The notes under the pieces were generated by a model. It did not search any database. It had not been told where the DNA came from and worked only from the letters and a program-made list of their open reading frames with translations. Source: Bacteroidales bacterium (GTDB taxonomy: Bacteria > Bacteroidota > Bacteroidia > Bacteroidales > P3). Taken from it: a stretch of 64,000 nt of DNA. Within the stretch, counting starts at the first letter, position 1, and every line of letters starts with the position of its first letter. Where the stretch lies: NCBI GenBank assembly GCA_017647785.1, contig JAGCJW010000004.1, positions 1 to 64,000 of the forward strand. The letters run 5' to 3'. The position numbers and the translations under genes were made by a program. Positions 45,449 through 48,007 of the stretch are shown here, one piece after another.

Positions 45449-46822
45449 CTATAATCTTTCTAATTGTACAGTGAAGTGACGCATTAATTCAGCTTCCCAA
45501 GTGATTTTTACACCTCTTGTGATTTCGTTTCTTCTGTCGTAAACGTTTTTCAAAGCTGCTGCTATAACGTCCATGTGATTGTTTGTGTAAACTCTTCTTG
45601 GGATACATAAACGAACGAAGTCTAATCCACCGAAACGGTTTTCTCTTGTAACAGGATCTCTATCTGCTAAGATATATCCTATTTCGCAACCACGAATACC
45701 TGCTTCTAAGTAAAGTTCGCAAGTCAATGTTTGAGCTGGGAACTCTTCTTTTGGTACGTTTGTAAGGATTTTGTCAGCATCAACGAATATTGCGTGTCCT
45801 CCAACAGGTCTTTGGTAAGGGATTCCGTATTCATCTAATTTTGCTGCTAAGTATTGTACTTGACGGATACGAGTATCAAGATTGTCAAATTCTGTATTTT
45901 CGTCCAATCCTACGGCTAAAGCATCCATATCTCTTCCGTTCATACCTCCGTATGTTAAGAATCCTTCAAAAGGAATACAGAATAATTTAGCACCTTCGTA
46001 CCATTCTTTTTTACGTGTTGCGATGAAACCTCCCATATTAACGATACCGTCTTTTTTTGCAGACATTGTCATACCGTCAGCATAAGAGAACATTTCTTTT
46101 GCGATTTCTTTGATTGTTTTATCTGCATATCCTTCTTCACGAGTTTTGATAAAGTAAGCGTTTTCTGCGAAACGAGCAGAGTCAAGTATAACTGGTTTGT
46201 TGTATTTGTCTGCAACAGCTCTTACTTCTTTAAGGTTTTGCATTGAAACAGGTTGCCCTCCTGCTGTGTTGTTAGTTACTGTAACTATAATAAAAGGAAT
46301 TTTGTCAGCATTTTCTGCTAATGCTTTTTCTAACTTCTTAGGATCTACGTTTCCTTTGAAAGATATTTCTAATTGAGTGTCTTTTGCTTCGTCTATTGTG
46401 CAATCTAATGCTGTAGCTTTACGACTTTCAATGTGTCCTTTTGTTGTGTCAAAGTGAGAGTTACCAGGTATTATGTCTCCTTGCTTTACTAAATGTGAGA
46501 ATAATACGTTTTCTGCTGCACGTCCTTGGTGTGTAGGTATAACATATTCAAATCCTGTGATAGCAGTGATAGTGTCTTTCAAACGGAAGAAGCTACTTGC
46601 TCCTGCATATGATTCATCTCCCATCATCATTGCTGCCCATTGACGGTCAGACATTGAGCCTGTACCAGAGTCTGTGATACAATCGATGTACACATGTTCT
46701 GATTTAAGCATGAAAACATTGTTTTTTGCTTCTTTAAGCCATTGTTCACGTTCTGCACGTGTAGATTTTCTGATTGGTTCTACCATCTTAATCTTCCACG
46801 ATTCTGCGAAAGGTAATTCCAT
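45449..46822 (-). CDS. tnaA: tryptophanase
   Basis: 457 residues, PLP-dependent. The opening MELPFAESWKIKMVEPIRKS, SMSDRQWAAMMMGDESYAGA, PTHQGRAAENVLF and MSAKKDG (PLP Lys257) match tryptophanases of gut Bacteroides more closely than tyrosine phenol-lyases. It splits tryptophan to indole, pyruvate and ammonia. The gene is monocistronic, with a terminator and a leader of about 150 bases containing a small reading frame and hairpins, suggesting regulated expression. A tyrosine phenol-lyase remains a minor alternative. Confidence 0.92.
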   Translation of the reverse strand: MELPFAESWKIKMVEPIRKSTRAEREQWLKEAKNNVFMLKSEHVYIDCITDSGTGSMSDRQWAAMMMGDESYAGASSFFRLKDTITAITGFEYVIPTHQGRAAENVLFSHLVKQGDIIPGNSHFDTTKGHIESRKATALDCTIDEAKDTQLEISFKGNVDPKKLEKALAENADKIPFIIVTVTNNTAGGQPVSMQNLKEVRAVADKYNKPVILDSARFAENAYFIKTREEGYADKTIKEIAKEMFSYADGMTMSAKKDGIVNMGGFIATRKKEWYEGAKLFCIPFEGFLTYGGMNGRDMDALAVGLDENTEFDNLDTRIRQVQYLAAKLDEYGIPYQRPVGGHAIFVDADKILTNVPKEEFPAQTLTCELYLEAGIRGCEIGYILADRDPVTRENRFGGLDFVRLCIPRRVYTNNHMDVIAAALKNVYDRRNEITRGVKITWEAELMRHFTVQLERL

Positions 46823-46870
46823 AATTAATTATTTTTAATGATTAAACTTATTTTATGATTTGACAAAATA

Positions 46871-46887
46871 TAGCAATAAATTTGCTA
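46871..46887 (-). promoter_or_regulatory. terminator-like hairpin in the tnaA leader
   Basis: On the - strand TAGCAA-ATTTA-TTGCTA (46871-46887) forms a 6-bp stem followed by TATTTTG. Its first three bases are the TAG stop codon of the leader reading frame. A ribosome stalled at that codon would hide the stem, as in attenuation. Weak as a stand-alone terminator (AT-rich, short). Confidence 0.4.
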
Positions 46888-46965
46888 CAAACAAAAAGAG
46901 TCTCTTTCTTTTAGATTAAGAAAGATAATTGAAGTTATATTATTACTCTTTACGTTTTTATTCAT
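46885..46965 (-). CDS. candidate leader peptide upstream of tnaA
   Basis: ATG at 46965 to TAG at 46885-46887, 26 codons: begins MNKNVKSNNITSIIFL and ends DSFCL. The ATG lies about 12 bases after the expected transcript start, with GAGG in GAGGCAATTATATG. It overlaps AAGAAAGAG, which can pair either with TCTTTCTT just upstream or with CTCTTTTT just downstream, so alternative foldings exist. It lacks Trp, unlike E. coli TnaC, so a Trp-stall mechanism is not evident. It could be incidental. Confidence 0.3.
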   Translation of the reverse strand: MNKNVKSNNITSIIFLNLKERDSFCL

Positions 46966-46983
46966 ATAATTGCCTCTTGTGTG

Positions 46984-47014
46984 CAAAGTTAGAAAATCTT
47001 TTCAAAACAACAAA
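46984..47014 (-). promoter_or_regulatory. tnaA promoter, exact consensus
   Basis: On the - strand TTTG (47011-47014), 19 bases, TAACTTTG (46984-46991). It is an exact consensus match and the only one in the gap, placing the transcript start near 46977, about 155 bases before the tnaA ATG. Confidence 0.75.
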
Positions 47015-47017
47015 ATA

Positions 47018-48007
47018 TTATCTATTTTGTATTACAAATTCTCCTTTTAAAACGCTAGAATCTGAAATAAATTTTACATTAACATTTTTTTCTTGAAGCA
47101 TTTTTCTATTTGAACTATTGTACCCTATAGCATAATTTATTTCCTTTGGATTCACTAAAATAGTTCTTGAATCCAAGGGAATATTATTTAGTTTCTCTCC
47201 CCAAATTCTTGATAATACTAATTCTTTAAATGAAACATGAAATGGTCCTGCTAATAAATGTTCGCCTTTTATTAAAGATTCGGACGGGTGCAGCCCCACC
47301 CTTAGTATAGTTATGTCTGTTTTTGAAAATATTTTGTAAATCTCTGCAGTCCACTCCACAGCTTCTTCAAGTGAAAGTGCATTATATTTACCTTCTCTAT
47401 ATAAATCTGCTAATTCAGTGTTATCAATTACAAGTGTAGGATATATTCTTGTAGTTTCTGCTCCTAATGATATTATTTTATTGGCAGTATGTTTTGATTT
47501 TTCTAAAGTATCTAATGGCAAACCTATCATCATTTGTAATCCAAGCGCGAAACCATAAGATTTTATCATGTGTGAAGCATTTTCTACATCTTTCACTGTA
47601 TGTCCTCTTTTTGCAAAGTCTAGCACTTCCTCATCTAAGGATTGAGCGCCAAGTTCTATATTTTTTACTTTATATTTTTTTAGTATATCTAATACTTTTT
47701 CGTTGATATAGTCTGGTCGTGTAGATATTCTTATACTTTCTATTTCTCCTCGCTCTATATAAGGTTGTACAGTTTCAAGATATATTATCATATCCTTCTC
47801 ATCTATACCTGTAAAACTCCCTCCAAAAAAAGCTAGTTCTATTTGAGATGGTTTTATAAAAGTAGCAAGATGCTGTTCTATTATTTGTTTTACTTCCTCA
47901 GGCTTTACGGCTTGTAACCGTCCAGAGATATGACGTTGATTGCAATATATACATTGATTAGGACAAGCTAATTCCGGTATGAAAACAGGTATGTTATAAT
48001 GCTTCAT
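47018..48007 (-). CDS. radical SAM protein of the Elp3-like group
   Basis: 329 residues. The iron-sulfur motif is CPNQCIYCNQR (residues about 15-25), followed by FFGGSFTGI and the SAM-binding TRPDYIN. It resembles the radical SAM half of Elp3/YhcC-type proteins but lacks the acetyltransferase domain. The function is open, probably RNA or cofactor modification. It follows the wzc gene by 7 bases and ends the gltX operon. Confidence 0.8.
   Translation of the reverse strand: MKHYNIPVFIPELACPNQCIYCNQRHISGRLQAVKPEEVKQIIEQHLATFIKPSQIELAFFGGSFTGIDEKDMIIYLETVQPYIERGEIESIRISTRPDYINEKVLDILKKYKVKNIELGAQSLDEEVLDFAKRGHTVKDVENASHMIKSYGFALGLQMMIGLPLDTLEKSKHTANKIISLGAETTRIYPTLVIDNTELADLYREGKYNALSLEEAVEWTAEIYKIFSKTDITILRVGLHPSESLIKGEHLLAGPFHVSFKELVLSRIWGEKLNNIPLDSRTILVNPKEINYAIGYNSSNRKMLQEKNVNVKFISDSSVLKGEFVIQNR

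Follow-up and report, generated by a model that had tools for sequence, protein, structure and literature searches.

In the tna operon of Escherichia coli, residues W12 and D16 of the leader peptide TnaC build a site for Trp, the ribosome stalls at the stop codon, and control is exerted via Rho (PMC8429421, PMC3902921). W12 is irreplaceable (PMC8429421), an Asp (D16) stands four residues past this Trp, and a Pro (P24) occupies the arrest site (PMC3902921). The TnaC of Proteus vulgaris acts via Rho as well and stalls at a sense (Lys) codon (PMC8429421, PMC3902921), which sets a precedent for stalling ahead of the stop (PMC3902921). The leader described here, which precedes tnaA in a Bacteroidales genome, shares with attenuators of the trpL/pheL type a leader frame and hairpins before an amino-acid operon, and differs from them in that it lacks a run of regulatory codons, would control catabolism rather than synthesis, and conserves residues other than the cognate amino acid. 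SpeFL and similar arrest peptides offer a further comparison: in these systems, a free metabolite is recognized by the nascent chain together with the ribosome, and expression of a catabolic gene is controlled accordingly. This principle is expected to be common to them and to the Bacteroidales leader; the gene and the presumed ligand differ, and no sequence resemblance was noted.

The window, that is, the whole stretch of 64,000 nt analyzed here, carries tnaA on the minus strand (45449..46822), encoding a tryptophanase of 457 aa. The assignment follows from the NCBIfam tryptophanase equivalog NF053783 (917.9 bits against a cut-off of 750) and from the tryptophanase structure PDB 8sbg (878 bits), and the product stays under the cut-off for tyrosine phenol-lyase (561.6 versus 720.7 bits). 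A promoter of the Bacteroidetes type, consisting of a -33 element TTG (47011..47013, minus strand), a 19-nt spacer, and a -7 box TAACTTTG (46984..46991, minus strand), lies about 157 nt 5' of the tnaA ATG, close to the 155 bases given in the original prediction. The spacer mode among relatives is 19 to 20 nt. A generic sigma-70 scan returned nothing useful, as is expected for the phylum Bacteroidetes. The promoter is squeezed between tnaA and a radical-SAM-like gene (47018-48007, minus strand), whose 3' end comes to within a few bases of the -33 element.

Between promoter and gene, a frame of 26 codons (MNKNVKSNNITSIIFLNLKERDSFCL) occupies 46885..46965 on the minus strand, with its ATG at 46965-46963 and its TAG at 46887-46885, and is followed by a gap of 62 nt to tnaA that is AU-rich and C-poor. 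It contains no Trp codon. Its conserved core, FLNLKERDSF, is encoded at 46894..46923 (minus strand) and corresponds to the consensus [FY]LN[IVL]KxRDx[FY]. The frame had been predicted from the letters of the window, and its conservation at the peptide level in relatives now identifies it as a real coding sequence; likewise, the predicted absence of Trp is true both of the window frame and of the core in relatives.

Among 183 tnaA upstream regions from related loci chosen solely by TnaA similarity, 76 contain a short frame with FLNLKERD or a close relative of it, as judged by a relaxed motif that found 0 matches on the opposite strand, 0 in reversed sequences, and 0.1 in shuffled ones. A chance open frame is rejected on these counts (76 sense versus 0 antisense matches). 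The other 107 regions are without the peptide, and the core is not present at the named Bacteroides loci L092, L097, L108, and L114. Of 149 genomes in the family, 71 carry a match to a degenerate DNA pattern that represents the core, about one in each and nearly always at the tnaA leader, whereas the backwards pattern gave a single match. Across the order Bacteroidales, the pattern is found in 124 of 393 genomes; 285 of the 393 have a TnaA match, and the exact pattern is present in approximately one-third of the tnaA-bearing genomes sampled. When the contexts of 130 matches were examined, about 93 proved to be short frames ending 31 to 180 nt 5' of tnaA. A distribution beyond Bacteroidales was considered and rejected, with the pattern at background in the class Bacteroidia outside the order (16 of 295 genomes, the genome of the window itself among them).

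Together, the family and order sets comprise 169 leaders (153 nonredundant) from about 55 Bacteroidales families, and their consensus core is [FY]-L-N-[IVL]-K-x-R-D-x-[FY], followed by 0 to 9 residues and the stop codon. Per-column conservation is strictest at L, N, K, R, and D, where the exact invariance of N, K, R, and D is in part a product of selection, as the order-wide set was gathered by a pattern that fixes these four. The [FY] two residues after Asp lies outside every search pattern and is kept in 136 of the 153 leaders, with a stop codon at that position in four others. In a few further leaders, among them L149 and L197, Q or V replaces the core L. Approximately 10 C-terminal residues are kept, while the first 13 or so codons of the frame vary freely. 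Synonymous codon choice is likewise free at the L, R, I, N, K, D, and F positions; the leaders use each of the six codons for Leu, the six for Arg, and the three for Ile. Because all synonymous codons occur, selection acts on the peptide and not on the RNA. Conservation of an RNA alone is accordingly rejected, and Rfam covariance models are likewise without a match at the leader: their sole match in the window is a tRNA, and in 13 related loci (E<=0.5) they gave only a sub-threshold match to an L20 leader, in L326 and off the leader. The leaders thus share with ligand-dependent arrest peptides in general a C-terminal-proximal amino acid motif with free synonymous codons.

The placement of the frame also resembles that of TnaC, directly upstream of tnaA and behind a common promoter. 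A TAnnTTTG box is found in 144 of the 153 leaders. Of 162 such boxes, 134 are situated 50 to 79 nt 5' of the core; a reversed-sequence control gave 20 matches. An ATG stands about 13 codons 5' of the core in 135 of 142 leaders. The positions of promoter and start codon therefore point to a co-transcription layout, in which peptide and tnaA are evidently arranged for a single transcript.

The likeness to TnaC extends to general design. In both, a leader peptide of about 24 to 36 residues directly precedes tryptophanase, with the critical residues in its C-terminal half. Asn-Ile follows an aromatic and a hydrophobic residue in each (WFNI in E. coli TnaC, FLNI in Bacteroidales), and in the commonest tail lengths FLNI lies 9 to 10 residues before the stop, similar to WFNI; this resemblance can be taken as suggestive only. 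The differences are more substantive. The position aligned with W12 is F or Y in 169 of 169 leaders, that aligned with the essential D16 is Lys in 169 of 169, and no conserved Pro follows as an equivalent of P24; Trp is seen towards the end of the frame in a single leader of the 169, and never in the core. The Bacteroidales leader further differs in its short spacer (median 92 nt, range 31 to 180 nt before tnaA), in its hairpins at core and stop, and in its occurrence before an iorAB operon, described below. The Pfam model PF08053 (Tna_leader), which scores E. coli TnaC at 71.1 bits, had no match at E<=10 to eight Bacteroidales leader peptides, including that of the window, so that descent from TnaC is not supported. 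The view put forward in the original prediction, that a leader without a Trp codon would work differently from E. coli TnaC, is supported by conservation of the peptide across Bacteroidales with a core that lacks Trp. By sequence, the leader is not TnaC; it may nonetheless work like TnaC.

A link to the likely signal comes from three genomes (G236, G337, and G451; loci L378, L379, and L380) in which the peptide precedes an operon other than tnaA. No TnaA match is present in any of these three genomes, and in relatives from their families the peptide stands before tnaA. The operon encodes a fused indolepyruvate:ferredoxin oxidoreductase alpha/beta (iorAB), an ADP-forming acyl-CoA synthetase, and a class I/II aminotransferase, all with family scores under the equivalog cut-offs; the genes fit steps in the oxidative breakdown of aromatic amino acids, and their exact substrates are inferred. 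The common denominator with tryptophanase would be an aromatic amino acid. Hence, the position of the peptide before an iorAB-type operon in genomes that lack tnaA suggests that the signal is an aromatic amino acid, with Trp as the simplest candidate.

The RNA around the frame appears to be structured as well. Within the core of the window leader, TCTTTCTT-AATCTAA-AAGAAAGA forms a first hairpin (46903..46925, minus strand), its arms being a perfect 8-bp inverted repeat (46918-46925 and 46903-46910). A second hairpin, TAGCAA-ATTTA-TTGCTA (46871..46887, minus strand), holds the leader stop codon in its 5' arm, and its stem of TAGCAA (46882-46887) and TTGCTA (46871-46876), followed by TATTTTG, is as the original prediction described it. 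The mutually exclusive pairings that had also been predicted are borne out in part: the TCTTTCTT/AAGAAAGA repeat stands, and the switch around AAGAAAGAG is not confirmed in the form proposed, since pairing of AAGAAAGAG with CTCTTTTT leaves a 1-nt loop and is thus unlikely. A more stable alternative to it is predicted to be a long-range outer helix that encloses the 8-bp hairpin, formed between 46945-46957 and 46889-46901 (46889..46957, minus strand). The fold of the whole window leader has a z of -1.7, and 15 of 200 shuffles are equally good. Taken singly, the hairpins of the window are weak, and it is their conservation in relatives that carries the finding.

Covariation of the stop-codon stem in related tnaA leaders, suggested beforehand as a check, is seen in L035, where TAGCAA/TTGCTA of the window is replaced by TAACAA/TTGTTA, and hairpins at the stop position recur in relatives. 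Folding is better than in dinucleotide shuffles in two zones of the leaders, at the core and around the stop (mean z of -1.1 to -1.2, and about 0 farther on). Over the core, the mean energy is -6.57, versus -4.66 +/- 0.18 when synonymous codons are redealt among the sequences, and the best register beats this synonymous-codon control with a z of 5.4. Pairing of the frame tail with the 5' part, which corresponds to the outer helix, reaches 0.233 in 152 leaders versus 0.149 +/- 0.011 with the 5' part shuffled. Strong hairpins after the core are found in 54% of leaders versus 21% of shuffles, and in 39% of leaders versus 18% of shuffled sequences they start 12 to 17 nt past the Asp codon (p = 2.6e-5). 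Judged by the size of the ribosome footprint, a ribosome whose P site holds Asp or the codon after it would have its leading edge roughly at this start. In a clade of eight leaders, the helix has three pairs in which both partners have changed, and 10 doubly changed cells, a count reached in 0 of 500 shuffles by statistics that, as throughout our covariation analysis, ignore relatedness among leaders; the pairing is lost on sliding the partner strand. In L161, L180, L022, L148, and L205, a terminator-like hairpin with a U-tract coincides with the stop or closely follows it. U-tracts stand behind hairpins in about a quarter of leaders, and mean U is little above background, so a universal intrinsic terminator is not supported. 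The stretch directly 5' of tnaA is unstructured in most leaders, with folding energies that approach those of shuffles past +40 relative to the stop.

These results establish a selected peptide, a layout for co-transcription with tnaA, a tie to aromatic catabolism, and a conserved RNA structure surrounding the frame. A nascent-chain regulator is suggested because only the C-terminal end is kept, the codons are free, and the peptide is tied in cis to a class of substrate, and such a signature favours ligand-induced arrest at or just after R-D-x. We therefore consider it reasonably probable that the leader is an unannotated, cis-acting arrest-peptide attenuator before tnaA, Bacteroidales-wide and TnaC-like in its action. 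In this proposal, of which we infer the stalling, the ligand, the termination step, and the direction of control, abundance of an aromatic amino acid (in the simplest case, free L-Trp) would cause a ribosome translating the leader to stall at R-D-x or just past it, with the nascent core in the exit tunnel forming or completing the sensor, as in TnaC. Once stalled, the ribosome would melt the core hairpin and the outer helix, sit against or over the hairpin that starts 12 to 17 nt past the Asp codon, and alter the fate of the leader RNA such that transcription reaches tnaA. If no signal is present, the ribosome would finish and leave, and transcription would end early in the leader, at an intrinsic terminator in leaders with a U-tract and perhaps through Rho in others. 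The E. coli mode, with arrest at the stop codon, would not be general, because the distance from the peptide core to the stop varies from 1 to 11 residues after Asp. As for the ribosome itself, the 23S rRNA gene of the window genome is represented by a partial match only (contig C13, L376), in which the 2609 region is absent and the stretch GUUGAAAAA, which we take to be the TnaC-relevant 746-752 loop, is present.

The output of such a peptide could be different. A Trp-sensing peptide might expose the tnaA start or block a nuclease, and so act on translation or RNA stability rather than on termination. The restriction of U-tract terminators to a subset of leaders would agree with this, as would the short gaps between leader and gene (median 92 nt), of which that of the window, 62 nt, AU-rich, and C-poor, offers scant room for a Rho site; with an unstructured stretch before tnaA, however, there would be little sequestration of the start site to relieve, and we regard this output as rather unlikely. 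The sensing step could also be conceived as that of a classical attenuator, in which the ribosome slows at Phe/Tyr codons for want of charged tRNA and thereby selects an RNA structure. Core positions 1 and 10 do retain an aromatic residue, the tail commonly has one as well, and the site is flanked by hairpins. The strictest conservation nevertheless falls on L, N, K, R, and D instead of on the aromatics, there are only 2 to 4 aromatic codons without a run, and a starvation sensor would induce a catabolic gene just as its substrate runs low, all of which makes this reading quite improbable.

Two further explanations dispense with sensing by the ribosome. The peptide could be a small protein with a target in trans, for instance TnaA, a transporter, or the membrane, and could reside in the tnaA operon by chance. 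Conservation at the peptide level would be expected of it, yet the free first 13 residues, the variable tail length, the RNA structure conserved around the frame, and the presence of the peptide at the head of other aromatic catabolic operons where tnaA is absent all fit it poorly, and we hold it to be very unlikely. Finally, bacterial uORFs can work through reinitiation, and a constitutive, ligand-free uORF might provide coupling of translation or protection of the mRNA without any regulation; such a frame would have no need of a fixed C-terminal motif with free codons that is restricted to aromatic-amino-acid operons, and there is hardly any probability left for it. Ligand-induced arrest of the nascent chain is thus the reading that we prefer.

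Among 5.4 million open papers, with most subscription papers and all bioRxiv preprints outside this scope, no description of the core sequences or of a Bacteroidales tna leader was found, and the peptide may be present, unnamed, in small-protein catalogues. We lean somewhat towards the view that the leader represents an undescribed class of nascent-chain sensor of aromatic amino acids, independent of TnaC, Bacteroidales-wide, and portable among aromatic catabolic operons, in which the Trp of TnaC is replaced by Phe/Tyr and a Lys-x-Arg-Asp block. If the mechanism is true, this would be a second, sequence-unrelated way to sense an aromatic amino acid by a nascent peptide and would allow a comparison of how different peptides make a sensor of the same ribosomal tunnel. 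Indole from gut Bacteroidales acts on the host and on other microbes, and the literature searched holds no description of how these bacteria switch on tryptophanase; the mechanism, if true, could therefore also provide a genetic handle on indole production. The leader is also an unannotated and easily recognized element that stands before tnaA in families across Bacteroidales, an order abundant in the gut.

The leader peptide is a single short frame where it occurs before tnaA, and it is not essential, because 107 of the 183 tnaA upstream regions, and hence many tnaA-positive Bacteroidales, are without it. The nearest -7 box lies a median of 80 nt from the tnaA ATG in regions without the peptide versus 212 nt in those with it. 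The peptide would thus behave as a module, in whose absence the promoter adjoins tnaA. Such an arrangement is found within the genus of the window, at a locus whose TnaA is 95% identical (L007): here, leader peptide and hairpins are both absent and a similar promoter adjoins tnaA, which makes this locus and the window species a natural comparison of leader absent and leader present.
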